A stretch of DNA of 32,711 nt from the IMG/VR virus record IMGVR_UViG_3300046463_000589, positions 1-32,711 of that record. The stretch is one strand, 5' to 3'. The notes beneath the pieces are model-generated. The model saw nothing but the letters and a program-made list of their open reading frames with translations, was not told where the DNA came from and made no database searches. This document shows, piece after piece, positions 3,334 to 31,323 of this stretch (the first letter of the stretch is position 1; every line of letters begins with the position of its first letter). This stretch comes from a virus. The position numbers were made by a program, and so were the translations under genes.

Positions 3334-3575
3334 TCCAACTCGGCGATGGTGGCATCGGCTAGCAGACGGCCCATCCGCAGCTTGTGCCGCTCAGCCTCCA
3401 CAATTTCGGCTGCGTCCATGCATTGACGGCGCAGGATTCTTTCCTCGTCCCGCTCAGACTCCAACTCGGCGATGCGCTCCAACTGCCAGTTCACCATCTT
3501 CGTCAGATCGGAGACGCGAGCCCGAAGCTCCAGGATCGACGCCCACTGCTCCCGCGCTTGATCACGCTCGGTCAC
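3135..3575 (-). CDS. Coiled-coil protein, 146 aa (paralogue B)
   Basis: Helical, with heptad-like segments (RIAELESERDEE, TIAELEAERDRLRAAL). Start GTG 3575 overlaps the stop of the Gp3-like gene (GTGA). Around residues 105-117 it reads IARAALAGEEKP, exactly the type of C-terminal end found on its paralogue, but it then continues for 29 residues (starting DGGLIPQPTRRE) before ending LLGEGKP. This looks like an old gene end that was read through after a small deletion removed the TGA. Function unknown; tandem duplicate of the next gene. Confidence 0.7.
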   Translation of the reverse strand: MTERDQAREQWASILELRARVSDLTKMVNWQLERIAELESERDEERILRRQCMDAAEIVEAERHKLRMGRLLADATIAELEAERDRLRAALTEIDAHGGGSWIGEIARAALAGEEKPDGGLIPQPTRREMGVDAPDFGPLLGEGKP

Positions 3576-9125: not shown

Positions 9126-9368
9126 CTACTCGACCGCGATGGTGCCCTCGTCCTCACCACCGCTCGAGCCGACGACCTTGATGTGCGACTCACCGACGTA
9201 GTCGTGACCGAACGTCACAAACGCCGTCCCGTGGTTCGGTGGGTTCTTCTTCTCGACGGGCTCGGCGCCACCCTGCGCGGCCTGCACGCTGATCGTGCGT
9301 CCCTTCACAGCTGCCTTGTCGTAGCTGAACAGCACGAGCTTGCGTTGCCCTGTCTTCTCTACTGCCAT
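9126..9368 (-). CDS. Small beta-rich protein, 80 aa
   Basis: Start ATG 9368 has an AGGAGG ribosome site 7 nt upstream; an in-frame start 13 codons earlier would overlap the M23 gene. The sequence alternates hydrophobic and polar residues (RKLVLFSYDKAAV, GTAFVTFGHDYV, SHIKVVGSS), suggesting a small beta-sandwich, perhaps Ig-like, with an acidic Gly-rich end (GGEDEGTIAVE). It contains no Cys and no membrane span. It may be a virion or wall-binding domain; function is unknown. Confidence 0.7.
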   Translation of the reverse strand: MAVEKTGQRKLVLFSYDKAAVKGRTISVQAAQGGAEPVEKKNPPNHGTAFVTFGHDYVGESHIKVVGSSGGEDEGTIAVE

Positions 9369-9378
9369 TTCTGCCTCC

Positions 9379-9846
9379 TTAGACGTTGGGCCAGTGGCCC
9401 CTGACACGCGCCGCCGAGGCGACGGCGCAGATGTGGTCCTTCGCTGCCTGTTCCCCGCCCGGATGGGTTACTCCCATGTGTAGGTGTGATCGACCCGGGT
9501 CGTGCGGCCAATGTCCAGAGTGTCCCAGGATGCAGCCGGCGGTGACGCGGTGATTGAGTAGCTCGTCGATGCGATTTTCGAGGTGGGTCGCGAAATATTC
9601 GATCCCCGAGGACGTCGTGAGGTAGATGTTCCAGCCGTAGATGCCGGGCGCGACCTCGCCCTCGGCTGGGTTGTGTCCGGATAGCCGTGTGATGGTGCAG
9701 GCTTCGGGGGCGATGAACCGTGTGCCTCCCATGCACATGAAGTCGAGCGCCCAGTTGTGGGGGATCCCGGCGGTGACGTGGAGGTCGCTACGTGGCGGCG
9801 CCGGGCCGTGCCATGTCGACGGGTGCGGGTAGACGAGTTTCCCCAT
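9379..9846 (-). CDS. M23-family (LytM-like) endopeptidase
   Basis: The 155-aa protein has the M23 zinc-peptidase signature: an N-terminal His/Asp site in PHNWALDF (His30, Asp35), FIAPEACTITRLSG (44-57) and YGWNIYLTTSSGIEYFATHLE (70-90), then AGCILGHSGH (103-112) and the HxH motif SHLHMG (His121, His123). Such enzymes cut peptide cross-links of peptidoglycan. His30 and Asp35 are separated by four residues, whereas the usual spacing is three. There is no signal peptide, so it either exits via the holin or is a virion protein. ATG 9846 has GAAAGG as ribosome site and starts the lysis transcript leaving the divergent promoter region. Confidence 0.8.
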   Translation of the reverse strand: MGKLVYPHPSTWHGPAPPRSDLHVTAGIPHNWALDFMCMGGTRFIAPEACTITRLSGHNPAEGEVAPGIYGWNIYLTTSSGIEYFATHLENRIDELLNHRVTAGCILGHSGHWPHDPGRSHLHMGVTHPGGEQAAKDHICAVASAARVRGHWPNV

Positions 9847-9853
9847 GCGGGCC

Positions 9854-9900
9854 TTTCTAGTAGAAACTACGGATATCGCATGTGTAGCAGGTGTTACTCT
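9854..9900. promoter_or_regulatory. Divergent promoter/operator region
   Basis: The 60-nt interval between divergent genes holds a perfect palindrome TTTCTA-G-TAGAAA (9854-9866), an overlapping GTAG/CTAC hairpin (9860-9870), and ATGTGTAGCAGGTGTTAC (9880-9897). The last resembles the operator of the other ribbon-helix-helix gene at 6181-6203, which contains ATGTGT and, on its own coding strand, GTGTTAC. TACTCT (9895-9900) may be a -10 box ending 6 nt before the plus-strand ATG. Strongly palindromic DNA here suggests binding by one or both small regulators. Confidence 0.4.
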
Positions 9901-12717: not shown

Positions 12718-15700
12718 CTAGCGCGGCAGCCCGGGGCTGCCCCACCGTGTCTGTTCCCCGAGGTAGTTCTGTACGGAGCGGCCGACGACGCGCCCGTCGA
12801 GCTCGACGGTGGTGTGGAGTTGGATCGGCATGCCGCCGCGGGCCGGGATCACCGTTTCGTTTTTGTGAAGCATGGCGAGCCCGTCGGCGAGCGCGACGCC
12901 GCCGCGGGCGAAGTGGACGGCGTGCGAGGTGAGCTGCTCGACGAGCGAACCGTGGGTGTTGGCGCCGGTGCCGGAGCCGCCGAGGCTCGAGGCGATCAGC
13001 CCGCCGAGTTCCTGGCCGCCCTGCGGCAGCCGGGATGCCGCCTGCATCCAGGAGATCTGCTGGCCGGGCGTGCCGGGCTCGAACGTGATGCCGGGGTAGT
13101 TCTTCTTCCATGCGTCGAGCATCTTCGAGTCGACGATGCCGCCGGACGCGCGCCATAGCCCGCGACGGAGCGAGACGCCGCCGACCCTGGTTGCCCGGAT
13201 AGCCGCCCTTGCTTGCGCCCCTGGCCCGAGCAGCCCGGCGAGAGCGGTGCCGATCGGAGTCTCGTTTCGGTCTGCCCCATAGTCATTGAGGTACATCGCT
13301 GCTGCCCGGTACTCGGGTACGTCCGGGAGTCCGGTCGTCAGGTTCAGTTTCGGGTTCTTCCCGAGTTTCGGGAGCACCGGTCCGCCGTCCTGGAAGTGCC
13401 CAAACCAGTTCAGGTGGTTGAGCGCTGGCAGGCCGATCTTGCGGGTGGCCGACGACTTGAGTACGTACTCGCCGTTGTGGAGCATCGCGAGCCCGGCCTT
13501 CGTCTTGCCGCCCTCGGCGTGGTGGGGCATGCTGCCTGCGCTCGTCGACGGTAGCGCGGAACTGGCGCCGGTCAGGTTGTTGATCGCCGAGATCAACTCC
13601 TGCATCGACTTGTTCAGGTCGCCCATCGCTCCGACGAACAAGGTCTGGGATGCGTTCCAGTCCGACCCGGCCTCGACGGTGCCAGGCGTGATGCCGTACT
13701 TCTTGAACAGAGCGTTGATCTTCGCTCGGATGGCCTTGACCTGCGCCTCGGTCTTCGCCCCAGCCGCCTGACGCTCGAGCCCAGCCAGTTGCTTCTCGAA
13801 GTCGTCCTTGTCGGCTTTCTGGCGTTCGGCGAGCGTCGCGGCGTTGGCGTCGATCTGCGCCTGAACCTTCGCGTCCGCGATCGCCTTTGCCGCATCATCT
13901 ATGGCCTGTTGATCGGCGGCGAGTCGCTTCTGGTAGTCCTCCGGCGTCTCGCCCGATGTTGGCCCGGCGCTGGTGTCGGCCTGTAGTTGAGCCTGCGCGG
14001 AGGCGAGCGCCTGCTGGCGCTGGGCTGCCGCAGCCGCATCCTGCTGCGCTTTCTGCGCGTCCTGCTCCGCCTTGAGTTTCTTCGCGAGCGCCCTGGTCTT
14101 CGGCGAGCCGCCTCCGGCGGTGTCGAACGCCCCCGCAGCCGCCGACGTAAACGACGACATGCTCGACGCAAGATCGGTCTTAGCTTTGGCGAGCGCGATC
14201 TTGGCGGCGCGGATCGCGCCCTCGATGATCGTGATGACGGCGTTCCCCATCGTGGACGCAACAGAGTTGGTGACGCTTTGGATGCCGACGCCGACGCTCG
14301 TCATCATGTCCGCACCGATGCCTTTGAACAGCGGCGAAACGGAGTGGACCTGAGCCCGGGCGCGAATAGCGACCTCAGCAGCAGCGGCGACCTGAGCAGC
14401 AGCGGCCTGTACGGCGCCAACAGTGCTCGAGATTCCGCCAGCCAGACTCATCCCGATCGAGACACCCACGCTGCGAGCCGCGCCTGCCACCTTCCCAACA
14501 GATGCAGCGACCGTGGATACAACACCGCTGATCGACTTGCCCGCGTCCGCGACGACCTTCCCGGCCCCGGCGAGGAACCCAGAGTGCGCCCTCTGTCCAG
14601 CCGTGATGTTCGACCTGACCAGCGACTCGAGGTTGGCAAGGAACCCTTCCTTGCCGAGCAGTTTCGCCTCGGCAACGATCTTTTTGCTGCCGATCAAACT
14701 CGCCGACTTGTTGTAGCGGATCTCCAGGTTCGACGCTGCCGCCGCCAGGCGGGCGAGCGTGATCGCGGACAGCGCAGCCTTCGGGTCGCTCTCCCTCAAA
14801 CTCTGCGCCATGTTCCGGGCAGCAGTGCTGATCCGACCAAGTTGCTGCTCCGACCTGCCGATGTTGCTGCCGAAATCAAGGTTGCGTTTCAGTCCTTCGA
14901 CGGCGGCGATCGGGTGGGCGACAGTCCGGGCGAACGCGTCGAACGTCCCCGAGATCGACTGCGTGCCCTGCCCGAGCGGACCGAAGTTCGATAGGAGTTT
15001 CCCGTAGGAGGCGTTGAGGCCGTCCAGTTTGCTCTTTAGCCGCGTCGTAGTCTGCTCGTGCTTGTCCTGCGCTGCATCGACAGCGGCGCCGGCGGACTTG
15101 ACGGCATCCTGCGCGGTAGCGACATCGTTCTGCGCCTGCTTGTAATCGCGCCACGCCTGAGCACCGACACGGGTCTTCTGCGTCCCGGCAGCCAGCACCT
15201 CGTGCCACGCCCTCGTCTTCTGGGCGAGCGAGTCCTGCGTGTTTCCGAGCGCGATCTCCTGGTTCGACAGTTCCCGCTGCGCCGTCGTGATGTTCGGCGT
15301 CAGGTTCTTCAAGTCCCGGATCGTCGCGAGCATGTCGCGGAACTTTGAGTTCGCGTTCGCGACCTGGTTCTCGACGTTGATGAACGCCCGGCCAAGGATG
15401 TAAGCGGCACCGGCGAGTATGACCATCGCGGCGGCGAGCTCGGGGTTCAGCACCATCAGTTTGAGCGCGCCCGACACCTGGCCGATCGCGGAGAACAACT
15501 TGCCGAACACGATCAGGATCGGGCCCACGGCGGCAGCGACCGTAGCCAGAATCCCGATCCATTTCTTTGTTGCCGGTGACAGTTGGTTGAACCAGTTGAG
15601 TGCCCGCGTCAGGGCGTCCACTACGCGATTGAGCATCGGCAAGAGAGCCGAGCCGAGCTTCTCGCCGATATTCTCGATCTGCGCCCGAAACTGCGCCATG

Positions 15701-16404
15701 CCACCGGCGGCAGTAGAGGCATAGGCGGCCGCCTGCCCGTGCAGTCGCTGCGTGACCTCGGCAATGACCTGGTTGCCCGTCGCCAACTTGTCGGCGAGTT
15801 TGGCCGTAACCTTCTCCTGCTCGGTCGCCGCATCTCCTGTTTTCTTATGCGCCGCCTTAAGCGCGTCCATCGCGGTCGTAACCGGGATGACATTGATGCC
15901 GAGTTGCTTGACGGCACGGGCGCTGCCGGTCATCGCCTGCGACAACATCTGTGACGACTGCTCGAGGCTGATGTGCTTGAACCGAGCGAGGTCTTCGGCG
16001 ACCGCCAGATCCCTGACCGACTTCGTGCTCGATTGCGTGGCGACAACGAGACGTGCGAGTCCGCCCTGGAGCTCGATGTTGGTGAAGCCGAGCGCACGGC
16101 CGCGTTGCTCCGCTCCCTGGAGACTCTTGTCCATTCCCTTGACGGACAGCCCCGACGATTTAACCGCGGCGTTGAACTTCGCCATCGACGCTTCGGAGTC
16201 GAGCGCCATCTTGGTTATGACGACGCCGACGCCGACGATCGGCAGGGTGACACTCTTGGTCAGCGTCTTTCCGAACGACGTCATGCTTCTGCCGGTCTTT
16301 TCCATCCGGCCTGCGAACGTCGTCGCCGCACTCGAAGAGCGAGTCAGCGCACGCTCAAGTCCGGCGGTATCGCCGGTGATGACGACCTCAAGTTTGCGCG
16401 GCAC
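12718..16404 (-). CDS. Tape measure protein
   Basis: At 1228 aa this is the largest gene, placed right after the tail assembly chaperones as is usual. Residues 1-70 (VVITGDTAGLERALTRSSSA to LPIVGVGVVITKMALD) match the N-terminus of phage minor-tail tape-measure proteins. Hydrophobic segments occur at about 283-305 (WIGILATVAAAVGPILIVFG) and 320-340, a possible membrane-insertion region. Long helical, Ala/Gln-rich coiled-coil stretches follow (about 780-920). The C-terminal part repeats GGxxxxGLAMLH blocks (HAEGGKTKAGLAMLHNGEYV and ARGGVALADGLAMLHKNETV). GTG start at 16404 with GAGGGGGTGAG upstream. By the usual 0.15 nm per residue it implies a tail of roughly 180 nm. Confidence 0.92.
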   Translation of the reverse strand: MPRKLEVVITGDTAGLERALTRSSSAATTFAGRMEKTGRSMTSFGKTLTKSVTLPIVGVGVVITKMALDSEASMAKFNAAVKSSGLSVKGMDKSLQGAEQRGRALGFTNIELQGGLARLVVATQSSTKSVRDLAVAEDLARFKHISLEQSSQMLSQAMTGSARAVKQLGINVIPVTTAMDALKAAHKKTGDAATEQEKVTAKLADKLATGNQVIAEVTQRLHGQAAAYASTAAGGMAQFRAQIENIGEKLGSALLPMLNRVVDALTRALNWFNQLSPATKKWIGILATVAAAVGPILIVFGKLFSAIGQVSGALKLMVLNPELAAAMVILAGAAYILGRAFINVENQVANANSKFRDMLATIRDLKNLTPNITTAQRELSNQEIALGNTQDSLAQKTRAWHEVLAAGTQKTRVGAQAWRDYKQAQNDVATAQDAVKSAGAAVDAAQDKHEQTTTRLKSKLDGLNASYGKLLSNFGPLGQGTQSISGTFDAFARTVAHPIAAVEGLKRNLDFGSNIGRSEQQLGRISTAARNMAQSLRESDPKAALSAITLARLAAAASNLEIRYNKSASLIGSKKIVAEAKLLGKEGFLANLESLVRSNITAGQRAHSGFLAGAGKVVADAGKSISGVVSTVAASVGKVAGAARSVGVSIGMSLAGGISSTVGAVQAAAAQVAAAAEVAIRARAQVHSVSPLFKGIGADMMTSVGVGIQSVTNSVASTMGNAVITIIEGAIRAAKIALAKAKTDLASSMSSFTSAAAGAFDTAGGGSPKTRALAKKLKAEQDAQKAQQDAAAAAQRQQALASAQAQLQADTSAGPTSGETPEDYQKRLAADQQAIDDAAKAIADAKVQAQIDANAATLAERQKADKDDFEKQLAGLERQAAGAKTEAQVKAIRAKINALFKKYGITPGTVEAGSDWNASQTLFVGAMGDLNKSMQELISAINNLTGASSALPSTSAGSMPHHAEGGKTKAGLAMLHNGEYVLKSSATRKIGLPALNHLNWFGHFQDGGPVLPKLGKNPKLNLTTGLPDVPEYRAAAMYLNDYGADRNETPIGTALAGLLGPGAQARAAIRATRVGGVSLRRGLWRASGGIVDSKMLDAWKKNYPGITFEPGTPGQQISWMQAASRLPQGGQELGGLIASSLGGSGTGANTHGSLVEQLTSHAVHFARGGVALADGLAMLHKNETVIPARGGMPIQLHTTVELDGRVVGRSVQNYLGEQTRWGSPGLPR

Positions 16405-17317: not shown

Positions 17318-17728
17318 CTACGTGGTCGCCATGACGACGGCGCCGGTGCAGGTAAACTTGACCTGCGTGTCGGAGCGGTCGCCGACCTTGCCGCTGAGCG
17401 GCATGTAGTCCATCAGGAGCGCGGTGGCGGTGAACGACGGGTTCGTCGTCGAGACGGTCGTGTTGACCGGGACGATCTTGACGGTGAAGCCGGTGCTCGA
17501 CAGCAGCGGCCACAAGGTGGCGTTCACCTTCGCCGAGGCGAAGTCCTGCAGGAACGTCACGGTGATCGTGTCCGAGCGGAGCCCGACAGCGTGCTGCGTT
17601 GCGGTTGCGCCCATGGCGGTGATGTCGACGTCGTTCTGGGAGATAGCCACCTCGACTGAGTCGACGTGGTCGGTCAGGTCAACGGCGTTCACCGTCACCT
17701 GCGCGTTGGTCAAAATAACGACTCCCAC
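17318..17728 (-). CDS. Major tail tube protein
   Basis: A 136-aa beta-rich protein: TVNAVDLTDHVDSVEV (residues 12-27), DSDTITVTFLQDF around 52-63, KVNATLWPLL, TNPSFTATALLMDYMPLSGK and VGDRSD. These suit the lambda gpV/tail-tube fold, and position between the terminator and chaperone genes agrees. A second copy of this domain forms the C-terminus of the 386-aa protein at 19177-20337, sharing FLQDF, KVNA, SGFTV, TNPxF, YxPLSGKVGDR. The GTG start at 17728 has a GAGGAAGGGG site, suited to high expression, and a hairpin lies just upstream. Confidence 0.8.
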   Translation of the reverse strand: MGVVILTNAQVTVNAVDLTDHVDSVEVAISQNDVDITAMGATATQHAVGLRSDTITVTFLQDFASAKVNATLWPLLSSTGFTVKIVPVNTTVSTTNPSFTATALLMDYMPLSGKVGDRSDTQVKFTCTGAVVMATT

Positions 17729-17788: not shown

Positions 17789-18214
17789 CTAGGCGCCGCA
17801 GATGACGTACACGTCCCACTCCGCGCCGAGCACGGATGAGCCGTCGGAGCGCACGTACTCCTGGTAGGCGCGGCACTCCCTTACGTCCAGGTCGGAGCAC
17901 GCCCCGCCTAGAGTCTTGTCGGTCTCGATCGCGTCCTGCACCGATGACGCGGTGCCGGTGCCGATCATCTCGTCGAGCAACTTCTGCGCCCCGATGTCGG
18001 AGACGGCGCCGACGAAACCGAACACGACCATGTACCAGTTCGTACTCCCGCCGCCCATCGCCTGCCCGTACTCCACAGCGACGTCGCTGGACGGACGCAC
18101 CCAGAGCGTCGGCGGCGTCGGGTTCGCGAGCACATAAGCCGACACCTGCTCGACCCCGGCGACAGCCTGGAGGTTAGCGGCGAGACCAGCGCGGATCGCG
18201 GCAAGCGAAGTCAC
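17789..18214 (-). CDS. Tail terminator protein
   Basis: GTG 18214 overlaps the connector's stop (GTGA). The 141-aa product has an N-terminal helix (LAAIRAGLAANLQAVAGVEQ), TLWVRPSSDVAVEYGQAMGG (34-53), a strand-rich core (NWYMVVFGFVGAVSDIG), a helix (AQKLLDEMIG) and C-terminal strands (RAYQEYVR, GAEWDVYV). This is the order found in siphovirus tail terminators (gpU-like), which cap the tube and join it to the head. The gene order connector, terminator, tail tube supports the call. A longer frame to 18406 is Arg-rich noise. Confidence 0.7.
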   Translation of the reverse strand: MTSLAAIRAGLAANLQAVAGVEQVSAYVLANPTPPTLWVRPSSDVAVEYGQAMGGGSTNWYMVVFGFVGAVSDIGAQKLLDEMIGTGTASSVQDAIETDKTLGGACSDLDVRECRAYQEYVRSDGSSVLGAEWDVYVICGA

Positions 18215-18816
18215 CCGCTCGGACGCTCGCGTATGTAGTCCGAGAGCAGAAACTTGACGGACGGATCTGTGACGGCCAGCCGAGTGACGGCGCCGACGTC
18301 GAGTCCGATCGCGACGATGCCGAACGGCGCCTCCCGAGCTCGGCGGAGCAGCTGCGTGGCGAGGATCGTGACGGCCTCGACGATCGCGCCCGGCACCGCC
18401 GCCCATCCGAACTTGCCGGTCACTTCAACTGAACGCGGCCACGGCGGTAGCGCCCTCCCCCACACGAGGTTGACGGTCGCGCGCGTCCACGGCCTGCCGT
18501 CCGAGTCAGCGTTGTTCGGCTCGAGCACGAACCACTGATTCAGCGTCCACGCCTCCTCATAAACGCCGTCGCCGTTCCGGTCGACCTTCAAACTCGTGAG
18601 CGTTATGAGGTCGTCGATCAGACAGGTGCTGCCCGTCTGCGGCGTGTAATGCCTGACCTGCGTGGCGTCACTGTCGGCGTAGAACCTTCGATTGCACGCG
18701 CCCTCGATTCCGCGCGAAGCAGCCTCGATCGCGGCGGTCACGTCGTCTTCCGCGAACGTGGTGCCGGTGAGCTCGAGCGTGGCTTTGAGTTGTTCGTTGG
18801 TGAGGTAGACGGTCAC
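18211..18816 (-). CDS. Head-tail connector (gp6-like adaptor)
   Basis: The 201-aa protein starts MTVYLTNEQLKATLELTGTT then AEDDVTAAIEAASRGIEGAC, the N-terminal helices of the head-tail connector family (HK97 gp6/SPP1 gp15-like) that form a ring under the portal. It continues with a beta part (LTSLKVDRNGDGVYEEAW, WPRSVEVTGKFGWAAVP) and a helical part (IVEAVTILATQLLRRAREAP). GTG 18816 overlaps the upstream stop (GTGA). Start and neighbours are consistent, so this is one of the firmer structural calls. Confidence 0.8.
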   Translation of the reverse strand: MTVYLTNEQLKATLELTGTTFAEDDVTAAIEAASRGIEGACNRRFYADSDATQVRHYTPQTGSTCLIDDLITLTSLKVDRNGDGVYEEAWTLNQWFVLEPNNADSDGRPWTRATVNLVWGRALPPWPRSVEVTGKFGWAAVPGAIVEAVTILATQLLRRAREAPFGIVAIGLDVGAVTRLAVTDPSVKFLLSDYIRERPSG

Positions 18817-19166
18817 GCGCCCTCCGGGGTGATCCTGACGAGGATGTAGGAGTCGTTCGGGAACGTCTGGATGCCGCCGCCCTGGTAGGTGACCTGCCAG
18901 TCGGCGAGGTAGAGGCCGGAGACGCTCGTGTTCCCGGCGATCCAGGCGTAGGACACCTTGCCCTTCGAGCCGTCGACGCCGGTGCCGTTCTGGTCGTTCG
19001 ACGCCGCCGCGTCGATGACGGGCGTGCCGCTGCCGTTGATCGGGGCGACACGGAACTTGACGGTGGCGTTCTGGAGGTTGACGGCCGCCCCGGTTGAGTC
19101 TTCGAGCGTCGTATGGATGATGCTGGTCGTGTCACCGACACGGAGAAAGAAGTCTGCTACTGGCAT
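18813..19166 (-). CDS. BppU-like N-terminal domain protein, 117 aa
   Basis: All of the protein is one beta-sandwich-like domain: FFLRVGDTTSIIHTTLEDST (residues 5-24), AVNLQNATVKFRVAP (27-41), VSYAWIAGNTSVSGLYLADW (71-90), VTYQGGGIQTFPND, YILVRITPE. This pattern matches the N-terminal domain of the phage baseplate upper protein (BppU), often found in virion surface or adhesin-anchoring proteins. It lies between the connector and the tail-tube fusion. ATG 19166 was chosen; a GTG lies one codon earlier. It may connect the adhesins to the virion. Confidence 0.65.
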   Translation of the reverse strand: MPVADFFLRVGDTTSIIHTTLEDSTGAAVNLQNATVKFRVAPINGSGTPVIDAAASNDQNGTGVDGSKGKVSYAWIAGNTSVSGLYLADWQVTYQGGGIQTFPNDSYILVRITPEGA

Positions 19167-19176
19167 CACGGCCCTT

Positions 19177-20337
19177 TCACGAGGTGGCCTCGACGATCTC
19201 GGTTACGGCCTGGAAGACGACAGGAGCGTCGTCGCGGTCGCCGACCTTGCCGGATAGCGGCGTGTAGTTGGTGAGAATGCAGGTGGCGGAGAATGTCGGG
19301 TTGGTCGGCCCGGTCAACGAGTTCTGCCGTGGCTTGGCGGTCACGGTGAACCCCGAGCTCGACAGCAGACCGGACAGGACAGCGTTCACCTTTGTGACCC
19401 CGAAGTCCTGTAGGAAGGTGGCCTGGATGACATCGGTGCGCATGCCGAGCGTCCAGACGGTCGCGGTATCGCCGTAGCTCGTGACGTCGATCGGGGCGGA
19501 GTGCGTGCCGAGTTCGAGCGCGTCGAGGTGGTCGGAGAGATCGATGCCGTTGACGATCAGCCCGCCGTCAAGGAGGACATGGAGCGGTGGTAGTACCGGG
19601 TGTCCGCCAGTTCTCGCGCCTGTCGCGTAGAGCCTAGCGCGACCTGCACCGGTCTTGCCGAGATGGAGTTCGTCCTTTCCTGTCGCGTAGAGCCGCGCGA
19701 CCCCGGCACCGGTCTTCTGGTAGGTGATGCCGGCAGCGGGGATGTACTGTTTGACACCAGACCCGTAGAGTCGAGCGACCCCGGATCCGGTCTTCTGGTA
19801 AGTGGTGCCACCAGCGTGGATGTACTGCTTGGCGCCTGTCGCGTAAAGTCTCGCGACCTTGGCACCGTCCCACGGTATCGCGTCCCAGGCGTCTCCCCAC
19901 GGGTCGGCTCCCGTCCCGCGTTCGACGTAGGTAGCTGCGTTGCTGCCACCACCATGGATGCGAGCCGCACCGGCACCCGTCTTCTGGTAGATAGCGTGTC
20001 CGCCGACCTTGCTGCCCGACCCGTAGATGCGCTGAACGACCTTGCTGCCACCCCACGGCATCGTGTCCCAGGCGTCGCCCCACCCGAATGTCTTGAGGTT
20101 GCTGCCGGTCTCTACATAGATGCATGCCTTGCGGCCCGCCGCGTATGCCCTTGTTGTGCCCGTACCGGTCTTCTGGTAGACGATGCCACCGGCCTCCTGT
20201 TCCGGGAACGGCACGAGCGGCGAAACGCGTGGGCCTGCGGTGGTGCCACCGGTTCTGCTGCCTGTTGCGGAGAGTTGCGCGACCCCGGCGACCGCCTCGC
20301 CGTAGGTGACCTGCTTAGTGCCGTATCCCTTGGGCAT
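19177..20337 (-). CDS. Repeat protein fused to a tail-tube paralogue, 386 aa
   Basis: The protein has two parts. Residues about 10-245 hold degenerate 20-residue repeats of type KTGAGVARLYATG followed by a short strand (for example 52-71, 119-131, 182-196, 208-222, 228-242), interrupted by two WGDAWDxxPW blocks (86-95 and 147-156). Residues 255-386 are a second tail-tube domain: NGIDLSDHLDALELG, ATFLQDFGVTKVNAVL, LLSSSGFTV, TNPTFSATCILTNYTPLSGK, VGDRDD, closely parallel to the 136-aa tube protein. A tube subunit with a repeat domain would decorate the tail. Clear repeats, clear homology; function inferred. Confidence 0.75.
   Translation of the reverse strand: MPKGYGTKQVTYGEAVAGVAQLSATGSRTGGTTAGPRVSPLVPFPEQEAGGIVYQKTGTGTTRAYAAGRKACIYVETGSNLKTFGWGDAWDTMPWGGSKVVQRIYGSGSKVGGHAIYQKTGAGAARIHGGGSNAATYVERGTGADPWGDAWDAIPWDGAKVARLYATGAKQYIHAGGTTYQKTGSGVARLYGSGVKQYIPAAGITYQKTGAGVARLYATGKDELHLGKTGAGRARLYATGARTGGHPVLPPLHVLLDGGLIVNGIDLSDHLDALELGTHSAPIDVTSYGDTATVWTLGMRTDVIQATFLQDFGVTKVNAVLSGLLSSSGFTVTAKPRQNSLTGPTNPTFSATCILTNYTPLSGKVGDRDDAPVVFQAVTEIVEATS
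19603..20181. repeat. Degenerate 20-aa repeat block (tail-tube fusion)
   Basis: DNA coding for 6-8 degenerate copies of the (K/E)TGxGxARLYxxG unit. The copies share the phrase YQKTGxGxARLY and are more divergent than those at 24015-25229. Some carry the insertions KQYIHAGGTTYQ or KQYIPAAGITYQ, and two carry WGDAWD blocks. The same insertions (AKQYIPSGGxVYT) also occur in the other repeat protein, showing common origin. Confidence 0.75.
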
Positions 20338-21048
20338 CTACGTCAGCCACGCAAACCCGGTCTTCGTGTAGATGGTTCCGCTAGCCGCAGCCTTGTAAGT
20401 TTGGAGAACGGCCGCGTAGGAGTTGGCGTTAGGCGACCACGACCCTGTCGCGGTCTGGGTGCCTGTGCTGGAAAGGATCAGGTATTCGACGGCCAGGCAC
20501 GGCGATGTCCCGGTCGTGATCGCTCCAGCCTGACTGTAGCTACCGCCAGGCGTGAACGACGTCTCCGCGCTAGCGCCAATGGCAACAGCGGCGATGGCAA
20601 CCTCGGCCGCGAGCGTTGTTGCGCCGGTAGCGCCCACCGACATCGACGAGACGCTAGGCGCGCTCGACGCGGTCGCGTTCTGATCCCCAGCCGGGGAACT
20701 CGTGTCGGCGCCGGAGAACTCTAGGATCTTGATCGACATAGCGTTCACGTCGGCGACATTTATGGTGACTACGGTCGGCGCGTTCGCCATGTAGGCGGCG
20801 GCGAATCCGCACCCGGTGATCGACCCCGTAACCGCCGCTTTCTGAGTGTTCGTCGTCCACGTGTTCGGCGTAGATCCATTGTCGGTGACTCCTGAGCCGG
20901 AGATCGGGTTGGCGTTCGTCAATGCGCGACAGCCGACGACAACGACGAGCAAACTGCCTACCGATACGCCGCTGATGGTTTTGGCGTAACTGGTGCTGCC
21001 GGTGTTGTTGACGCTCGAGTGCCGCTCGGCGACGAACGCGAGAGCCAT
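20338..21048 (-). CDS. Beta-sandwich virion protein, 236 aa
   Basis: Starts at ATG 21048 (TAATG with the upstream stop) and ends one base before the tail-tube fusion. The sequence is low in charge and rich in Ser, Thr, Ala and Gly strands: FVAERHSSVNNTGSTSYAKT, SVGSLLVVVVGCR, INVADVNAMSIKILEFSGAD, CLAVEYLILSSTGTQTATGS. This resembles jelly-roll domains found in phage tail fibres and bacterial surface proteins. Its last residues GTIYTKTGFAWLT resemble the opening strand of the 20-aa repeats in its neighbours. A role in virion surface binding is inferred. Confidence 0.65.
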   Translation of the reverse strand: MALAFVAERHSSVNNTGSTSYAKTISGVSVGSLLVVVVGCRALTNANPISGSGVTDNGSTPNTWTTNTQKAAVTGSITGCGFAAAYMANAPTVVTINVADVNAMSIKILEFSGADTSSPAGDQNATASSAPSVSSMSVGATGATTLAAEVAIAAVAIGASAETSFTPGGSYSQAGAITTGTSPCLAVEYLILSSTGTQTATGSWSPNANSYAAVLQTYKAAASGTIYTKTGFAWLT

Positions 21049-22265
21049 TACGCGATCGCCACCCAACCCGAGGAGCCTGACCCGGATGACTTGTAGTAGA
21101 TGCACGTGCCGGCGCCGGCGCTCGTGAGGTTTAGGTAGTAGGACCCGACCGGGGCGGACTGGACTCCGCCCGGCGCGCCGTTGCCGGTGTAGATGCCAGG
21201 ACCAGCGCCGAGATCGATCAGCGGCGGCTCGAAGAGCCGATAGACGTTACTGGTCACGGACAGGTTGCTGCACCCGTTCACGCTCGAAGCGAACCCGTTG
21301 GCGGATACTCCGACCGCCGAGTTGAAGCCCGAGTTCGTGTTGATCAGAAGCCCCTTGACGTTCGCGCCTCCGGCAGCGTTCATAGTTAGCCCGCTGACGA
21401 AGTTGTACTGCCCCGAGTTCGTGGTGCCAAGACCGTCCGTGTCGATCGTGAACGCCTGCACCGCCGTCTGGTTTTGGACCTCCCAGCCGATACTCGTAAA
21501 CTGGTTCCAAGCCCCCAGGCAGACGATCGCGCCGCCGTCCATCTTGACGCCATACACACGCCAATGCGCAGCGGCTCCTGGCAGGTAGATGCTGGTGGGG
21601 CAGCCAACGAACGAGCCGCCCTTCACCTCCGCCCCAAGGCACTTCACGGGTTTGATCGCGTTCGTCAGGTTGTAGAAGGTGCAGTTGTCGATCGTGTGCC
21701 ACGACGCGTCCTGACCCGCGGTGAACGTCGACGTCCACCCCGTCGTACCGTCCGTGTTCGCGTTCGCCGCGAACACGCAGTCGCGGAATGTGACACGGCT
21801 CGTGTTGTTGATGCTGACCAGGGTCGAGCCGAGGAGTTTGTCGTAGAGCAATAGGTTCTCGAACATCGGCCCCTGCGGGTTGTGGGTGGCGCCCGCGTCG
21901 ATGCTGAACAAGGTCATAGCGTTCGTGCCGGTCAGAATCGCTGACCCGTGTCGCGGGTCGTTATAGATCGGACGGCCGACGCCAAGGAACTTCACGCGTT
22001 TGGTGCCCAGGTTCAGGGTGGAGTTGATGACATACCGGCCGCCGGGGACGAGAATTACCGGCTCGCTGTTCGTCGCTCCGGTGCCGAGGTCGATGGCGGC
22101 CTGGAACGCAGCCGTGTCGTCCGTCGCGTTGTCTCCGAGCGCCCCCATCGCTTTCACGTTGATGAAGTGCTGGTCGATGTAGTCGAGGTTGGAATCTACG
22201 AGCGTTCCCCAGCCGATTTCGCCGGCGGCGGGCTTGTAGAGCTTCCCCGGCGTATAGGTGCCCAC
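21048..22265 (-). CDS. Pectate-lyase-like tailspike 1
   Basis: A 405-aa right-handed beta-helix protein. An N-terminal anchor (KLYKPAAGEIGWGTLVDSNL, residues 8-27) is shared with the neighbouring tailspike, followed by INVKAMGALGDNATDDTAAF (35-54), the FGAxGDGxTDDTxAI entry of Pectate-lyase-3-type tailspikes, and then strand-turn repeats with Asn ladders. A C-terminal GSYYLNLTSAGAGTCIYYKS domain probably trimerises. Such proteins bind or cut capsular or cell-wall polysaccharides. Catalytic residues cannot be picked out. GTG start at 22265. Confidence 0.8.
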   Translation of the reverse strand: MGTYTPGKLYKPAAGEIGWGTLVDSNLDYIDQHFINVKAMGALGDNATDDTAAFQAAIDLGTGATNSEPVILVPGGRYVINSTLNLGTKRVKFLGVGRPIYNDPRHGSAILTGTNAMTLFSIDAGATHNPQGPMFENLLLYDKLLGSTLVSINNTSRVTFRDCVFAANANTDGTTGWTSTFTAGQDASWHTIDNCTFYNLTNAIKPVKCLGAEVKGGSFVGCPTSIYLPGAAAHWRVYGVKMDGGAIVCLGAWNQFTSIGWEVQNQTAVQAFTIDTDGLGTTNSGQYNFVSGLTMNAAGGANVKGLLINTNSGFNSAVGVSANGFASSVNGCSNLSVTSNVYRLFEPPLIDLGAGPGIYTGNGAPGGVQSAPVGSYYLNLTSAGAGTCIYYKSSGSGSSGWVAIA

Positions 22266-22279
22266 CTAGCCTGCCCCCA

Positions 22280-23761
22280 TCACGTCTGCCGGCACAGCCC
22301 GAGGGTTTGCAGAACGGTGATAATGTCGTCAACCGTGTGTGCGGCCCCGGTCGCGAGCAGCGGCTGCACGACTGGAGTTGCGTTCCAGAACCCGATCTTC
22401 TGTCCTGCCGCCCCACCCGACGTACCGATCTTCGTACCGGTGCCGGTTGAGAACTGGAAGTTCAAGCCGCCGCCAACGATGAGGTCGCCGGAGTACCGGG
22501 TATTCGTGAGGAACTGACACTCGTTCGAGGTGTTCCACGTCAGGAAGTTGATGTCGGTCGAGTTGTCCGCCTTGCGGCCGACGAAACTGGTGTTGTTCGG
22601 AATCCTGATCGGGCCACTAGTGTAGGTTGCGCCGTTTAGGTCGATGCCGTAGGCCGTGTAGGCGCCGCTAGCCACAATCCCTGACGTACCGCCGGTAAGG
22701 GACAGCCCGGCGGCCGACAATGTCCCGGCCGTCACACCTGCCAGAGTGGCGAGTCCGGTCGTGTCGATCCACGAGCACACAGAGCCCGTACCGACCGTCG
22801 GTGCCGGGGTCGAGTTACCGCGCGACAGCAGGAACAGGTTGTTGGTAGCAGGCTGCGTGTAGCCGTCGCCGGTACCTCGAGAACGGATCGCCGCCCCGTT
22901 CGTGTCCACATGCAGGAAGAGGTTATGGCGGCAATGACCAGACCCACCCGTGCCGGAGCCCAACATATCTAGGGCGATCGCAGTGCCACTCTTGTTGATC
23001 GACAGTCCGAGGAACCTATTGCTGTCGGTGTCGCCCATCTCAACCCCGGTGCCGTTCTGAACGTACACCTGACAGTTCACGAACACGTTGACGGACACAT
23101 TGCCGCCCCCGGTCGCCCACGATCCCATCGTGATCCCCTTAGCGGTCGAGGTCGTCGCGCACGCCACGGTGACCTTCTCGAAGATGCAGCCTTGGAGATC
23201 CTCTGTCCCCGCGAGGTTTACGGTGTTCAACGCGAGACCGACACTGGTGCCGTCATGGATGTGGATGTCGCGGAACTCACCGCCGTAGATCGACTTCAGG
23301 CTAATGACGGTGGCGGCGAGGTTGTTGCCGTGGAACGTGATCCCCTGAATGCCGCAACCTTTCAGCGACTCGGCGGCCGTGCTCGCCTCCCACTTCAACA
23401 TCGTGCCGGTGCCCGACAACCGCTTGAACACGGTGCCATGCGTAAGCGCGCTCGTGTACGGAGACCCGACAGACCCCTGCCCCTGCAAGCGGATGAACTG
23501 CTTGTCAGTCAGATCGAGGGTGCCATTGACGACGTACTGGGCGTCAGGGAACCTGATGAACAGCCCGTCCGCTGTCGCGGCGTTGATCGCTGCCTGGATG
23601 GTGGCGGTGTCGTCGGTGGTGCCTCCTGCCGCACGAACGACAGCGACGCCGGGGGTGACGAATGAGTCGAGCGTGTCGAAGTTTCCGTCTACCAGCGTCC
23701 CCCAGCCGGTCTCGCCGACCGCAGGCTTATATAAGCCGAGATTCGTTGTGGTGCTACCCAT
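22280..23761 (-). CDS. Pectate-lyase-like tailspike 2
   Basis: A 493-aa beta-helix protein with the same N-terminal anchor (LGLYKPAVGETGWGTLVDGN, residues 8-27) as tailspike 1, then VAVVRAAGGTTDDTATIQAA (38-57), a beta-helix (CGIQGITFHGNN, GGEFRDIHIHDG, LQGCIFEKVTVAC), and a C-terminal region with GTKIGTSGGAAGQKIGFWNA followed by TPVVQP and a helix (TVDDIITVLQTLGL) typical of fibre trimerisation ends. Two different spikes sharing an anchor suggests either alternative or stacked receptor-binding proteins. ATG 23761 overlaps the upstream gene by 8 nt. Confidence 0.8.
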   Translation of the reverse strand: MGSTTTNLGLYKPAVGETGWGTLVDGNFDTLDSFVTPGVAVVRAAGGTTDDTATIQAAINAATADGLFIRFPDAQYVVNGTLDLTDKQFIRLQGQGSVGSPYTSALTHGTVFKRLSGTGTMLKWEASTAAESLKGCGIQGITFHGNNLAATVISLKSIYGGEFRDIHIHDGTSVGLALNTVNLAGTEDLQGCIFEKVTVACATTSTAKGITMGSWATGGGNVSVNVFVNCQVYVQNGTGVEMGDTDSNRFLGLSINKSGTAIALDMLGSGTGGSGHCRHNLFLHVDTNGAAIRSRGTGDGYTQPATNNLFLLSRGNSTPAPTVGTGSVCSWIDTTGLATLAGVTAGTLSAAGLSLTGGTSGIVASGAYTAYGIDLNGATYTSGPIRIPNNTSFVGRKADNSTDINFLTWNTSNECQFLTNTRYSGDLIVGGGLNFQFSTGTGTKIGTSGGAAGQKIGFWNATPVVQPLLATGAAHTVDDIITVLQTLGLCRQT

Positions 23762-25310
23762 TTGTCCTCCCGCTGCCGACTAGGACTCTTGTGCTGCTCG
23801 AGGTTGGTTTGCCGTTGGTGGTTCCGTCTTCGCTGATCGCGCCCGGGGCACTCCACGGAGCGATGTTCCAGGAATCGCTGTCCCACTTGCTTGCGACGTC
23901 CGCGTATTCCGACGGTTCGGCGATCGTGCTGTTTCCGTTCACCGTGAACTCGTTGATACCCGACCCGGTGGCGACCTTTGTGCGGCCGTAGACTGGTTCG
24001 CCGGCGCCGGACTGTAGGTGCAGGCTCTCGCCGGATCCGTACAGCCGCGCGATGCCCGCGCCGCGCTCGACATACAGGTTCGCGTCGGGCCCGTATGCGT
24101 ACAGGCGGGCGATCGCCGCGCCGGTCTCGGCGAACGTGGTGGCCTTGCTGCCGGTGGCGTATAGCTTGCCGGTGGCGGTGCCCGTCCTGGCCCTGGTGTT
24201 GAGCTTCGCCCCCGAGCCGTACAGCTTGGCGGTGCTCGCGCCGGTGCGAGCCCTGATGTTGAGTTTGGCACCTGTCCCGTACAGTTGGGCGACGGCCGGT
24301 GCTTTGCGGTTGAACAGAGATGCGTCAGCACCAGTCGAGTAGAGTCTCGCGACCGCGGCGCCGGTCTTGGTGTAGACCTGGCCGCCTGACGGGATGTACT
24401 GCTTCGCACCCGACGCGTACAGCTTGGCGACCCCGGCACCCGTCTTGTTCAGGTGGAGTTCGTCGCCACCCGAACCGTAGAGCTTCGCTACGACGGCGCC
24501 ACGCTCGACGTAGGAGACGACCTTGCCGCCTGCGCCGTAGAGCCTGTTGACACCCGCGCCGGTCTCGACGTAGGTGACAACTTTGCCACCCGAGCCGTAG
24601 AGTTTTGCTACTCCGGCGCCGCGCTCCTGATAGGTGACAACCTTGCCGCCGACCGCGTAGAACTTGGCTACCCCGGCGCCAGTCTTGTTGACAAGCGCCG
24701 CGTCCGCGCCAGTCGCATACAGCTTCGCAACCGCGGACCCGGCCTTCGTGTAGACGGTGCCACCGCTCGGGATGTACTGCTTGGCGCCCGCGCCGTAGAG
24801 TTTCGCGACGCCCGCCCCGGACTTGTTAACGAGCTCTCCATCGGCACCCGTCGCGTAGAGTTTCGCGACGCCTGCCCCAGTCTTGTTCGCGAGCGCCGCA
24901 TCCGTGCCCGTGCCGTAAAGCTTCGCCGCCCCGGCTCCCGCCTTGATGTAGGTGGATGCGCCCGTCTTGTAGAGACCGGCGCCGGTCTCTACGTAGGTGA
25001 CCGCCTTGCTGCCGGCCGCGTAAAGCTTCACCACTCCGACGCCGAGCCGGTTGAACAGCGACGCGTCGGCCCCCGTACCGAACAGCCGGGCGACACCCGC
25101 ACCCGTCCGGTTGAACAGCGAGGCGTCCGTGCCGGAGCCGTAAAGCTTGGTGGCACCCGTGCCGCTCCTGTTGAGCAGGAGTTGGTCGGCGCCCGTCGCG
25201 TACAACCGTGTTGCGCCCACACCGGTCTTCTGGTAGACGACGCCGCCAACAGGCGGAGCGTCGCCGGGCGGCTCGACCGGCCGGACGATGATCGGGCGCG
25301 CGAACCGCAC
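23754..25310 (-). CDS. 20-residue tandem-repeat virion protein, 518 aa
   Basis: Residues about 28-432 comprise some twenty copies of a 20-residue unit, consensus (K/R/E)TGAGVAKLYxTGAD-strand-(N/V), for example RSGTGATKLYGSGTDASLFN (48-67) and KTGAGVAKLYATGADGELVN. One copy (about 108-118) is degenerate, and two carry the insertion AKQYIPSGGxVYT. The C-terminal 85 residues are a separate beta domain with KWDSDSWNIAPW (475-486). No catalytic motif is seen. The regular short-strand/turn pattern suggests an elongated beta-solenoid-like or fibrous stalk. GTG start at 25310 shares a base with the preceding stop (TAGTG). Role as adhesin or virion decoration is inferred from neighbours. Confidence 0.75.
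   Translation of the reverse strand: MRFARPIIVRPVEPPGDAPPVGGVVYQKTGVGATRLYATGADQLLLNRSGTGATKLYGSGTDASLFNRTGAGVARLFGTGADASLFNRLGVGVVKLYAAGSKAVTYVETGAGLYKTGASTYIKAGAGAAKLYGTGTDAALANKTGAGVAKLYATGADGELVNKSGAGVAKLYGAGAKQYIPSGGTVYTKAGSAVAKLYATGADAALVNKTGAGVAKFYAVGGKVVTYQERGAGVAKLYGSGGKVVTYVETGAGVNRLYGAGGKVVSYVERGAVVAKLYGSGGDELHLNKTGAGVAKLYASGAKQYIPSGGQVYTKTGAAVARLYSTGADASLFNRKAPAVAQLYGTGAKLNIRARTGASTAKLYGSGAKLNTRARTGTATGKLYATGSKATTFAETGAAIARLYAYGPDANLYVERGAGIARLYGSGESLHLQSGAGEPVYGRTKVATGSGINEFTVNGNSTIAEPSEYADVASKWDSDSWNIAPWSAPGAISEDGTTNGKPTSSSTRVLVGSGRTNG
24015..25229. repeat. 60-bp tandem repeats (about 20 copies)
   Basis: The coding DNA for the 20-residue units is a 60-bp tandem repeat array; on the minus strand most copies hold a GCCAAGCTNTAC core coding AKLY, and copies diverge by several bases. 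Unit length is conserved apart from two longer copies carrying the AKQYIPSGG insertion and one shortened copy. Between copies the strand-coding half varies in types (for example DASLFN, DAALVN, KVVTYV, KLNIRA), some of which recur non-adjacently, as expected from copy shuffling. Confidence 0.8.
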
Positions 25311-26845: not shown

Positions 26846-28276
26846 CTAGCGTTCGTCCGCCCCGGCGTCACAGTTCGTGACAGCAGGTCGAGTGTCCCCG
26901 TCGAAGTCGACGGTCGTGATCGGAGTGCAGGTAGCTGCAGGAACGAGATTGTCGGCGGAAGTCGTGCCTCCCGTCAAATGCAGGTCGAACGTAGAGTCCA
27001 CGAACGACGGAGACACCGGGTACACGTCGCCAGTCCCGCACGTGCCGTTCTGAGCGCCTCCGTAGGTGACCCACGCGTTGTAGCCGTAGCTCGCGATCGC
27101 GGTGCCGCTATCGAACGACGTGCAGCCCGTATTGCCTGTCAGCAGCAGCGGACCGAGATTCCCGACCAGATTGAAGGTGGTCGCGGACGAGGTGCCGCCC
27201 GAAGAGATGTTAAGGCCAATCGGGACGTTCGTGGTGTTGAAAGCGATCGTCCAGGCTCCCTTAATGCTGTGGGTGCCGGCGCGGGCGTCGAGAGTGATCC
27301 CTGAGTTGCAGTTGTCGGCGTTCGTGGTGATCGCGTTGTTCGTGATCGTCAGCGGGCCGTTGATGTCCCCGTTCGTGTCCTCCATGAAGATGCCCTGGCA
27401 GCCGACGTTGTAGATCCGGTTGCCAGTGATCGTGGACGACTGAAGACCGTAGATGTGAATTCCGTCGATGTGCGCCGTGCCGTCATCGACGCTCGGGCAA
27501 GACCCGGCCGCCTGCGGAGTGTTGCTCTCGACAGTGGTATACGTGCTGGGCCAGTCCGCGCAAAACCGCATCACCGACTGGATCAGGTTGCCCTTGATCT
27601 CTAGACCCGATGAATCCTGTCCGGAGGAAGCCACCGAGATCCTAATGCCTTCCGGACTGTTGGCCGCACTGCCGCAGCAGGACGGGCCGATGGTGTTGTA
27701 GTCGATCTTCCAGTTCTGCGCGTTCTCGATCTCTATGCCGCGATAGTTGACAGCCTTGTCCATCTGAATGTGGTTGTGGAAGACGTAGACGTTGGCTGGC
27801 GACGAGGATCCCGCGTTGCCCTTGGCGACGCCCTGGTCGTTGCTGCTCGAGATGTTGAAATACTGGATGGTGGAATACGCACCGCCCGCGGAGAAGTCCA
27901 CGCCAGCCAGAGACGTACCTGCGAACGTCGCGCAGAAATTCGTCTCAGGGGCGAACACGATCTGGGCACCCGAGCCCTTGCTGGTACTGAAAGCCTGCGA
28001 CCCGTAACTACCGCACTTCACCACAACCTGATCTCCGGCATTGGCCGCGTTGTACGCCGCCGACAGGCTCGAACAGGCTTGGGCGTCCACATACGCTCCG
28101 GCAGTGGATTGGCGAGTGCATGTACCGCCGTCCGTGTCTACCCACAGGTTTGCCACCGTCCCGCCGCCACCGCCACTGACAACTCCGCCCTGCCACACAC
28201 CAATGCCGAGCCCGACCACTGCCGCAGCGAGAACGGCGCCGCCGATTCTGCGGAACCCACGCCGTACCGGCGACAC
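26846..28276 (-). CDS. Beta-helix protein with N-terminal hydrophobic segment
   Basis: GTG 28276 follows AGGAGG and is fixed by the preceding stop, so the N-terminus is reliable. Residues 1-10 are basic (SPVRRGFRR), 12-34 hydrophobic (GGAVLAAAVVGLGIGVWQGG), then a Gly linker, which is the layout of a signal or membrane anchor. The remaining 440 residues form a right-handed beta-helix (YFNISSSNDQGV, NVYVFHNHIQMD, IDYNTIGPSCC, ITGNRIYNVGCQGI) with several Cys, ending VDFDGDTRPAVTNCDAGADE, close to secreted choice-of-anchor-type beta-helix proteins. Likely polysaccharide binding or cleavage; whether it is in the virion or secreted is unclear. Confidence 0.7.
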   Translation of the reverse strand: MSPVRRGFRRIGGAVLAAAVVGLGIGVWQGGVVSGGGGGTVANLWVDTDGGTCTRQSTAGAYVDAQACSSLSAAYNAANAGDQVVVKCGSYGSQAFSTSKGSGAQIVFAPETNFCATFAGTSLAGVDFSAGGAYSTIQYFNISSSNDQGVAKGNAGSSSPANVYVFHNHIQMDKAVNYRGIEIENAQNWKIDYNTIGPSCCGSAANSPEGIRISVASSGQDSSGLEIKGNLIQSVMRFCADWPSTYTTVESNTPQAAGSCPSVDDGTAHIDGIHIYGLQSSTITGNRIYNVGCQGIFMEDTNGDINGPLTITNNAITTNADNCNSGITLDARAGTHSIKGAWTIAFNTTNVPIGLNISSGGTSSATTFNLVGNLGPLLLTGNTGCTSFDSGTAIASYGYNAWVTYGGAQNGTCGTGDVYPVSPSFVDSTFDLHLTGGTTSADNLVPAATCTPITTVDFDGDTRPAVTNCDAGADER

Positions 28277-29369: not shown

Positions 29370-29606
29370 TTAGGCGATGGGGATCATTGTTGGTCGCCGA
29401 TCGCCGGCGGCCTTACACTTCGAGCAGTACCAGCGGTCAGCACTGAGCCAGAGCACGGAGCGCATCTGGCCGCACTCGCAACAGACGGTGATCATGACCG
29501 CGTTGTCGTCACTGTTGCCGAACTCGAGCGTCGGGTGACCGTTGACCTCGGGGAGCGTGCCGACCTCGTAACGTCCGGGCCGTTTGCGCTTGAGGTATGA
29601 GGTCAT
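29370..29606 (-). CDS. Zinc-ribbon protein, 78 aa
   Basis: ATG 29606 overlaps the glycosyltransferase stop (ATGA); the longer frame to 29759 is a shadow. The protein starts MTSYLKRKRPGRYEVGTLPE, then TLEFGNSDDNAVMITVCCEC and, after WLSADRW, YCSKCK. The two CxxC knuckles (CEC at about 43-45 with the preceding Cys42, and CSKC at about 61-64) imply a zinc ribbon. It ends RRPTMIPIA. It may be an adaptor for the sugar-transfer module, which is inference from position. Confidence 0.65.
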   Translation of the reverse strand: MTSYLKRKRPGRYEVGTLPEVNGHPTLEFGNSDDNAVMITVCCECGQMRSVLWLSADRWYCSKCKAAGDRRPTMIPIA

Positions 29607-30334
29607 GCGGAAACCGGCTCGCTCGGCTTCAATCCGATGTAGATCTCGTTCTCGCCGTCCTGCCCGCCGTGGTCGATCTTCACCATCAGCGTGCCATCGC
29701 GCCACTCCGGCCACAGGTATGCCTGCCCGATGTGGCCGAGCAGCGCGTCCGAGTCGCACCAGATGTTGTAGCCTTTGGCGCGGATCTTGCGGCAGAACTC
29801 ATAGTCCTCGTTCAGGTAGACGCCGTCTGTGCTCTCGAAATAGGGGAACCCGATGTCGTCGAGGACACGCCTGCGGACGAGCATGCCGGCGCTGCCGGAC
29901 GCCATCACCATGAACGGTACGTCGGGCACCTCGTGGAGTTGGTACGGCAGCCAGCCGGGGTAGTCGCGTCCGAGGCGCTCGTCGTGGAACACCGACTCCT
30001 CTTTCGCGATCGTCAGCGTATACGGCGGGTTGCGTTTCACCCCAAGCGGGACGACCACGTCGACGTCATCCTCGAGTAGACGGACGAGCAGGTCGCCGGG
30101 GAAGCGGTGATCGTCGCCGAGTATCCACGCCCACTCGTGATCGTCCGGCATGTCCATGATCGCCATGTTCAGGTTGTCGGTGATCGACGCCGAGCGGCGC
30201 ATCAGGACGCCGGAGCCGGGCGGCGTCGCGAGGTTAAACAGGTCGATGACGAAGTCTGGGTAGCGGAGCTGGTCGCCGATCGGGATGATGACGCTCCCTG
30301 GCGGCTGCTTCCTCGCCCGGTCTTTAGGTGTCAT
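29603..30334 (-). CDS. GT-A-type glycosyltransferase 1, 243 aa
   Basis: ATG 30334 overlaps a 13-codon mini-ORF's stop (ATGA). The protein has the GT-A order: SVIIPIGD (residues 15-22), a helix and WAWILGDDHRFPGDLLVRLL (about 70-89) with the DDH metal/nucleotide-sugar motif, DVDVVVPLGVKRNP, a later SGSAGMLVRRRVLDDIG with an acceptor-side LNEDYEFCRKIRAKGYNIWC (EDYEFC is a typical catalytic/acidic region) and a final LLGHIG. It would transfer a sugar to a phage or host acceptor. Substrate cannot be read from sequence. Confidence 0.75.
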   Translation of the reverse strand: MTPKDRARKQPPGSVIIPIGDQLRYPDFVIDLFNLATPPGSGVLMRRSASITDNLNMAIMDMPDDHEWAWILGDDHRFPGDLLVRLLEDDVDVVVPLGVKRNPPYTLTIAKEESVFHDERLGRDYPGWLPYQLHEVPDVPFMVMASGSAGMLVRRRVLDDIGFPYFESTDGVYLNEDYEFCRKIRAKGYNIWCDSDALLGHIGQAYLWPEWRDGTLMVKIDHGGQDGENEIYIGLKPSEPVSA

Positions 30335-30372
30335 TGGCCGTGGGCGGCGGTACGTGCAAGGAGGGAGTTCAT
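30331..30372 (-). CDS. 13-codon bridging mini-ORF
   Basis: ATG 30372 overlaps the stop of glycosyltransferase 2 (ATGA) and its TGA overlaps the start of glycosyltransferase 1 (ATGA). The peptide is MNSLLARTAAHGQ. The same length and double overlap occur at 2186-2227. Likely a relay that couples translation across a gap, with no peptide function implied. Confidence 0.3.
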   Translation of the reverse strand: MNSLLARTAAHGQ

Positions 30373-31217: not shown

Positions 31218-31230
31218 GTGCTCCTTTCAA

Positions 31231-31323
31231 TCACCGGCGAATCAGGTTGTAGACGGCCAAGGCAGCGAACGCCGCGAGGAAAATGATGATGAACTCGCGC
31301 CAACTCACCCACAAGGCGATCAC
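31231..31323 (-). CDS. Tiny single-span membrane protein, 30 aa
   Basis: GTG 31323 overlaps the epimerase stop (GTGA). The product starts with a short amphipathic part (VIALWVSWRE), then one hydrophobic span (FIIIFLAAFAALAVY) and a basic end (NLIRR). Its stop lies 13 nt before the next gene's start, and no other frame fits the interval. It matches the other tiny one-pass peptides in size and in ending on Arg-Arg. It could anchor sugar-transfer enzymes at the membrane, which is speculation. Confidence 0.55.
   Translation of the reverse strand: MIALWVSWREFIIIFLAAFAALAVYNLIRR

Follow-up and report, generated by a model that had tools for sequence, protein, structure and literature searches.

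Tail tubes that carry extra surface domains are known from several siphophages, e.g. SPP1, the lactococcal 936 phages and lambda. The tube of SPP1 is a mixture of gp17.1 and gp17.1*, where bare and extended subunits are present at 3:1 (PMC8718954). The gp17.1* protein is a minority tube subunit with an additional surface domain, is dispensable, and has been proposed to touch cell-wall carbohydrate (PMC8718954). Its extension is a C-terminal FN3 domain which is made by frameshift from a single gene. In the 936 phages the tube bears exchangeable carbohydrate-binding decorations (TpeX) that differ between relatives; these are C-terminal, frameshift-made BppA-like CBMs (PMC6669499). In lambda gpV and T5 pb6 the sole tube protein of the phage has a C-terminal Ig-like (Big_2) domain (PMC8718954). 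A related accessory structure is the neck passage structure (NPS) of TP901-1 and 936, a whisker-like protein with variable carbohydrate-active heads, whose anchor consists of a BppU-like beta-sandwich plus a coiled coil (PMC6669499).

The sequence analyzed here is a virus record of 32.7 kb (32,711 nt, termed the window) from a phage known solely from metagenome DNA; the minus strand carries the structural genes. An open reading frame at positions 19177–20337 (minus strand) encodes a 386 aa protein from its ATG. It is a tail-tube paralogue which has a repeat stalk at its N-terminal end, and it is found together with an intact canonical tube gene. Thus an extra domain is present on one tube subunit beside bare tube subunits, at the gene level, in each lineage with enough sequence. 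Unlike gp17.1*, the extension does not arise by programmed C-terminal frameshift of a single tube gene, but is N-terminal and resides in a separate paralogous gene. TpeX differs similarly in that it lacks a repeat stalk and is not accompanied by a second tube gene. The overall fold class is that of gpV and pb6. As with the NPS a position at the neck is possible, however the anchor here is a C-terminal tube domain in place of an N-terminal BppU-like one, and there is no detectable sequence relation. The closest named relatives of both tube domains are in phages REQ1 and Shagrat, yet each of these genomes gives a single tube match, with no repeat and no upstream domain. N-terminal placement, a separate gene and a repeat type undescribed so far are therefore what is unusual in this locus.

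The tail-tube domain

The tail-tube domain comprises residues 254–386 (positions 19180–19578, minus strand). It shows 47% identity (63/133, E-value = 3e-38) to the canonical tail-tube protein of the window, which is 136 aa in length and is encoded at positions 17318–17728 (minus strand). Both proteins match the PHROG family phrog_4574, annotated as major tail protein, with E-values of 1.1e-12 for the 386 aa protein and 2.2e-26 for the 136 aa protein. Two Rhodococcus phages, REQ1 and Shagrat, have major tail proteins to which the paralogue domain displays 36%–37% identity and the 136 aa protein 43%–45%. As the nearest named tube relatives are from Rhodococcus phages, an actinobacterial host is suggested.

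An AlphaFold model of the 386 aa protein, built with 54 sequences from the window and its related loci, has pLDDT values mostly above 90 at residues 254–386, and below 50 over most of the N-terminal repeats. Structure prediction could have returned a fold unlike that of tail tubes, but the predicted domain has the tail-tube beta-sandwich plus helix. The top Foldseek matches in the PDB are the monocin tail tube MttP (8qhs, 1.8e-7), the phage 812 neck (8q01), lambda gpV (7t2e, 2.1e-5) and the R4C tube (8gtb, 3.2e-5); SPP1 Dit is also among the matches.

A first-pass annotation of this DNA, made from the letters alone, had proposed that the C-terminal ~130 residues parallel the 136 aa tube protein and that the gene is a tube paralogue carrying a repeat domain. 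Both proposals are borne out by the sequence comparison and the predicted fold. The motifs FLQDF, KVNA, TNPxF and PLSGKVGDR, listed there as shared, are indeed present in both proteins; SGFTV is found only in the paralogue, and the tube protein reads TGFTV.

Fifty other tube rows define 17 conserved columns, and all four paralogues retain 14 of these. A conserved proline (residue 323) is changed to glycine in all four, and 16 shared residue differences set the paralogues apart from the group's canonical tubes. Column retention together with the proline change suggests a specialised copy rather than a decaying one.

The repeat stalk

The repeat stalk encompasses residues 1–246 (positions 19600–20337, minus strand). 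The repeat has the form KTGAGVARLYATGxDxxLxN, is about 20 residues long, and is also found in a 518 aa protein at positions 23754–25310 (minus strand), which has ~19 repeats and a C-terminal PVYGRTxVxTG segment. A blastp comparison of the N-terminal ~246 residues with the 518 aa protein gives an E-value of 2.7e-39 over 212 aa. With a repeat HMM the 386 aa protein scores 127 bits and the 518 aa protein 502 bits; the HMM includes units from both of these proteins, and blastp is the independent test. The repeats in the N-terminal part had been noted before, however they make up nearly two thirds of the protein and not half of it as had been stated.

The units of the stalk are irregular (20, 26 and 63 residues) and there are two Trp-rich inserts, GWGDAWDTMPW and PWGDAWDAIPW. 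An insert of similar form, KWDSDSWNIAPW, is located near the C-terminus of the 518 aa protein. In both open reading frames such inserts interrupt or follow the repeats.

The stalk repeats match no family in Pfam or NCBIfam. An AlphaFold model of the 518 aa protein shows two short strands per repeat unit at a pLDDT of ~60, and with this model Foldseek gives insignificant matches only, the best being curli CsgA (E-value = 0.21). A protein-derived scan of cellular genomes found no repeats, and the 24 single matches from a pattern scan all failed confirmation with the repeat HMM. In 396 Actinomycetota genomes there was one match (E-value = 5.3e-4), which reads across a stop codon and was not confirmed. 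A Rhizobium plasmid match (28.6%, 4e-4) was set aside as probably compositional. The repeat is also absent from 14 records with the same tube type, Rhodococcus phages included, in a search with a profile verified to detect the repeats in G007 and G009.

The upstream variable domain and its junction

Positions 20338–21048 (minus strand) encode a 236 aa open reading frame whose ATG, at 21048, overlaps the TAA of the preceding gene. The translated sequence ends with GTIYTKTGFAWLT, and its TAG stop codon is followed immediately by the start codon (ATG) of the tube paralogue. The last ~10 residues represent the first half of a repeat unit. This half-repeat, IYTKTGFAWLT (positions 20341–20373, minus strand), is near-identical in contigs L001 and L022, and in L022 the nucleotide differences in it are synonymous. 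While the domain as a whole is only ~20%–31% identical between lineages, the window, L001 and L022 differ hardly at all in its final ~10 residues. At the sequence level the domain diverges rapidly against near-constant flanks. No carbohydrate-binding family was found for the domain in Pfam or NCBIfam.

The open reading frame has its own stop codon in three of the four lineages. In the remaining lineage (L103 and L023, two contigs) the fused form is found. In L103 the upstream domain continues into the repeats without a stop, to give one open reading frame of 494 aa, and L023 is the same as far as the contig extends. A more distant contig, L024, has a similar domain at positions 1930–3755 that ends with YQKTGVAVLT and is located directly before a separate repeat protein; between this repeat protein and the neighbouring 118 aa protein (see below) there is no tube paralogue on the 5.9 kb contig. 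The fusion in L103 and L023, taken with the arrangement in L024, indicates that domain, stalk and anchor behave as exchangeable modules. Among unrelated virus contigs none was found to have the two junction motifs, and two other pattern matches (L130, L131) were spurious once translated.

Start codons directly after stop codons occur elsewhere in this phage, e.g. at 12718/12717, 26846/26845 and 28277/28276. Such junctions are common here and are always in frame, and programmed readthrough of the TAG was demoted as a main claim. Comparison of split and fused forms is stronger evidence than the TAG junction. A 374 aa open reading frame on the plus strand (19600–20724) is an antisense frame over the same DNA and was not taken as a gene.

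Gene order and expression

The gene order was read from contig G007 together with its close relative L022. From the head side it is terminase, portal, protease, repeat protein, a large open reading frame, the upstream domain and the tube paralogue. Next come the 118 aa protein, the head-tail adaptor, the tail terminator, the canonical tube and the tape measure. In the window (all minus strand) the 118 aa protein is at positions 18813–19169, the head-tail adaptor at 18211–18816 (phrog_442, 2.6e-17), the tail terminator at 17789–18214 (phrog_17840, 1.1e-20; start set by comparison with L001, the listed open reading frame opening further upstream) and the tape measure protein at 12718–16404 (phrog_1293, 1.3e-22). 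In REQ1 the adaptor directly follows the capsid genes, and in Shagrat a short open reading frame lies between. Relative to these phages the cassette is an accessory insertion that separates the head genes from the connector genes, and a neck position is possible.

The 118 aa protein is the next gene after the tube paralogue and a neighbour in all lineages seen, with 83%–96% identity across lineages. Its PHROG match is weak and is to a family of unknown function. A resemblance to a BppU-type domain was considered but not confirmed, as the protein has no PDB match and its profile, which is very shallow, gives no hhalign match to TP901-1 BppU or NPS.

The ribosome-binding site at the paralogue start is weak (−3.2 kcal/mol) and that of the canonical tube gene is good (−8.0 kcal/mol). 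The TAG–ATG arrangement makes it likely that translation of the paralogue is coupled to that of the upstream open reading frame. A weak start combined with coupling would make the paralogue the minor partner.

Three other open reading frames, at positions 21048–22265, 22280–23761 and 26846–28276, encode beta-helix or spike-like proteins with pectate-lyase-like matches, the one at 22280–23761 being below the Pfam cutoff. The first two have an N-terminal LYKPxxGExGWGTLVD motif in common. Upstream of the spike genes, at positions 29603–32689, open reading frames were noted by eye as glycosyltransferase-, nucleotide-sugar epimerase- and methyltransferase-like. Phage phiPsal1 likewise has glycosyltransferases between capsid and neck genes.

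Relatives and selection

Orthologues of the paralogue are present in three further IMG/VR phage lineages and were found solely in metagenomic virus contigs. The chain lengths range from 285 to 576 aa. L001–L004 have a 576 aa paralogue due to an extra segment of ~190 aa between repeats, L022 and L102 have one of 285 aa, and L103 and L023, where the upstream domain is fused, have 494 aa where complete. A canonical tube gene accompanies the paralogue, in the same gene order, in every lineage with enough sequence. By eye, the ~190 aa domain between the first repeats of the L001 orthologue (L001 positions 1374–3104) looks lectin-like (jelly roll). The insert has no family in Pfam, PHROGs or NCBIfam.

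In a tree of the tube sequences the decorated copies form one clade (100/99), to which the canonical tubes from these phages are sister with moderate support (92/74), and the two together are supported at 95/94; the relatives are contig fragments, and both groups of tubes contain few sequences. Between the window and L001, the one comparison close enough to judge selection, the tube domain of the paralogue has dN 0.048 and dS 0.319, and the canonical tube dN 0.058 and dS 0.468. The similar dN/dS of the two indicates for this pair that the paralogue is maintained as a protein under purifying selection.

About a dozen other contigs with the same tube family have two tube-like genes. In eleven contigs two short tube genes are found side by side and are free of repeats. 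L048 (positions 9165–9896) has, next to its canonical tube, a further tube-like protein that is extended by ~120 residues at the C-terminus. Tube duplication thus seems to be recurrent in the family.

Proposed role and alternative explanations

Taken together, the paralogue and the upstream domain resemble an attachment arm that can be exchanged and whose anchor is in the tail or the neck. We lean, by a small measure and from sequence and predicted structure, toward the paralogue as an accessory decorated tail-tube subunit that consists of a tube-domain anchor, a repeat stalk and an exchangeable head. The proposed mechanism is modelled on SPP1 gp17.1* and 936 TpeX, whose extensions are C-terminal. 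The tube domain would enter the rings of the tail tube as a minority subunit, while stalk and head would point away from the tube and touch the host surface weakly and reversibly. The head would be beta-rich and adhesin-like. In L103 and L023 it would be fused to the stalk, and in L001–L004 an additional domain would be located inside the stalk. In the phage of the window the head would be the separate open reading frame 20338–21048, attached through the half-repeats that flank the junction, either by non-covalent docking or by occasional readthrough. Before engagement of the tail tip, the head would probably bind reversibly to a glycan on the cell surface. A minority decorating subunit would fit the intact canonical tube gene, the weak start and the accessory distribution. 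Against this, the paralogue gene sits with the neck genes away from the canonical tube gene, so that a ring confined to the neck would also suit; in addition the repeats have no confident model, the upstream open reading frame ends at a stop of its own in all lineages but one, and neither head nor stalk has an assigned carbohydrate-binding family.

A more specific version, which is speculative and rather doubtful, is that of a split attachment arm. Here the half-repeat YxKTGFAWLT at the end of the adhesin open reading frame would complete the half-repeat MPKGYGxKQVxYGE at the paralogue N-terminus, through either strand complementation or a low level of TAG readthrough. One phage could then swap heads on a constant tube-anchored stalk whose repeat fold is undescribed.

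The position of the gene bears most directly on where such an arm would be mounted. In all lineages seen the cassette immediately precedes the genes for the 118 aa protein, the adaptor and the terminator, which is what would be expected if the paralogue made up a single ring of its own where the tail terminator meets the canonical tube, with whiskers at the neck as in the lactococcal NPS. The NPS of 936 phages are also dispensable and end in variable carbohydrate-binding, beta-helix or esterase-like domains (PMC6669499). However, position can be read from gene order only loosely, the neck passage proteins described so far are anchored by a BppU-like beta-sandwich and not by a tube domain, and the profile of the 118 aa neighbour found nothing in TP901-1 BppU and NPS. 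We regard a neck collar as somewhat unlikely. That the paralogue instead closes the tube at its tip and serves as the docking site for the 518 aa protein or the beta-helix spikes, by homotypic repeat contacts, appears improbable to us. The repeats common to the paralogue and the 518 aa protein are in its favor, as are the tube-like rings at the tail tips of other phages and the Foldseek match to SPP1 Dit, yet the gene is far from the tape-measure and distal-tail block. Moreover, the fusion partner in L103 and L023 is the upstream variable domain and not the repeat protein, and L024 has a repeat protein with no tube paralogue in the slot of its 5.9 kb contig, so that the paralogue is apparently not needed there. 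The fusion also makes the adaptor role for the repeat proteins that the first-pass annotation had offered the less favored of its two suggestions.

A duplicated tube gene with recombined repeats and no role in the virion, i.e. a relic or chance fusion, would account for copies that differ in length between lineages, as repeats are prone to recombination, and for the other contigs of the tube family that have two tube-like genes. Purifying selection like that of the canonical tube (window and L001), a conserved order with an intact reading frame in four lineages, and a single clade with 16 shared residue differences all argue against it, and we consider it very improbable.

If the paralogue is an accessory decorated tail-tube subunit, it would represent another design of siphophage tail decoration: in place of a frameshifted C-terminal extension, a dedicated second tube gene would carry the exchangeable head on an N-terminal repeat stalk. 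This would account for a tail that stays constant among relatives while what it contacts changes, and it would provide a defined repeat and junction that are open to structural testing.
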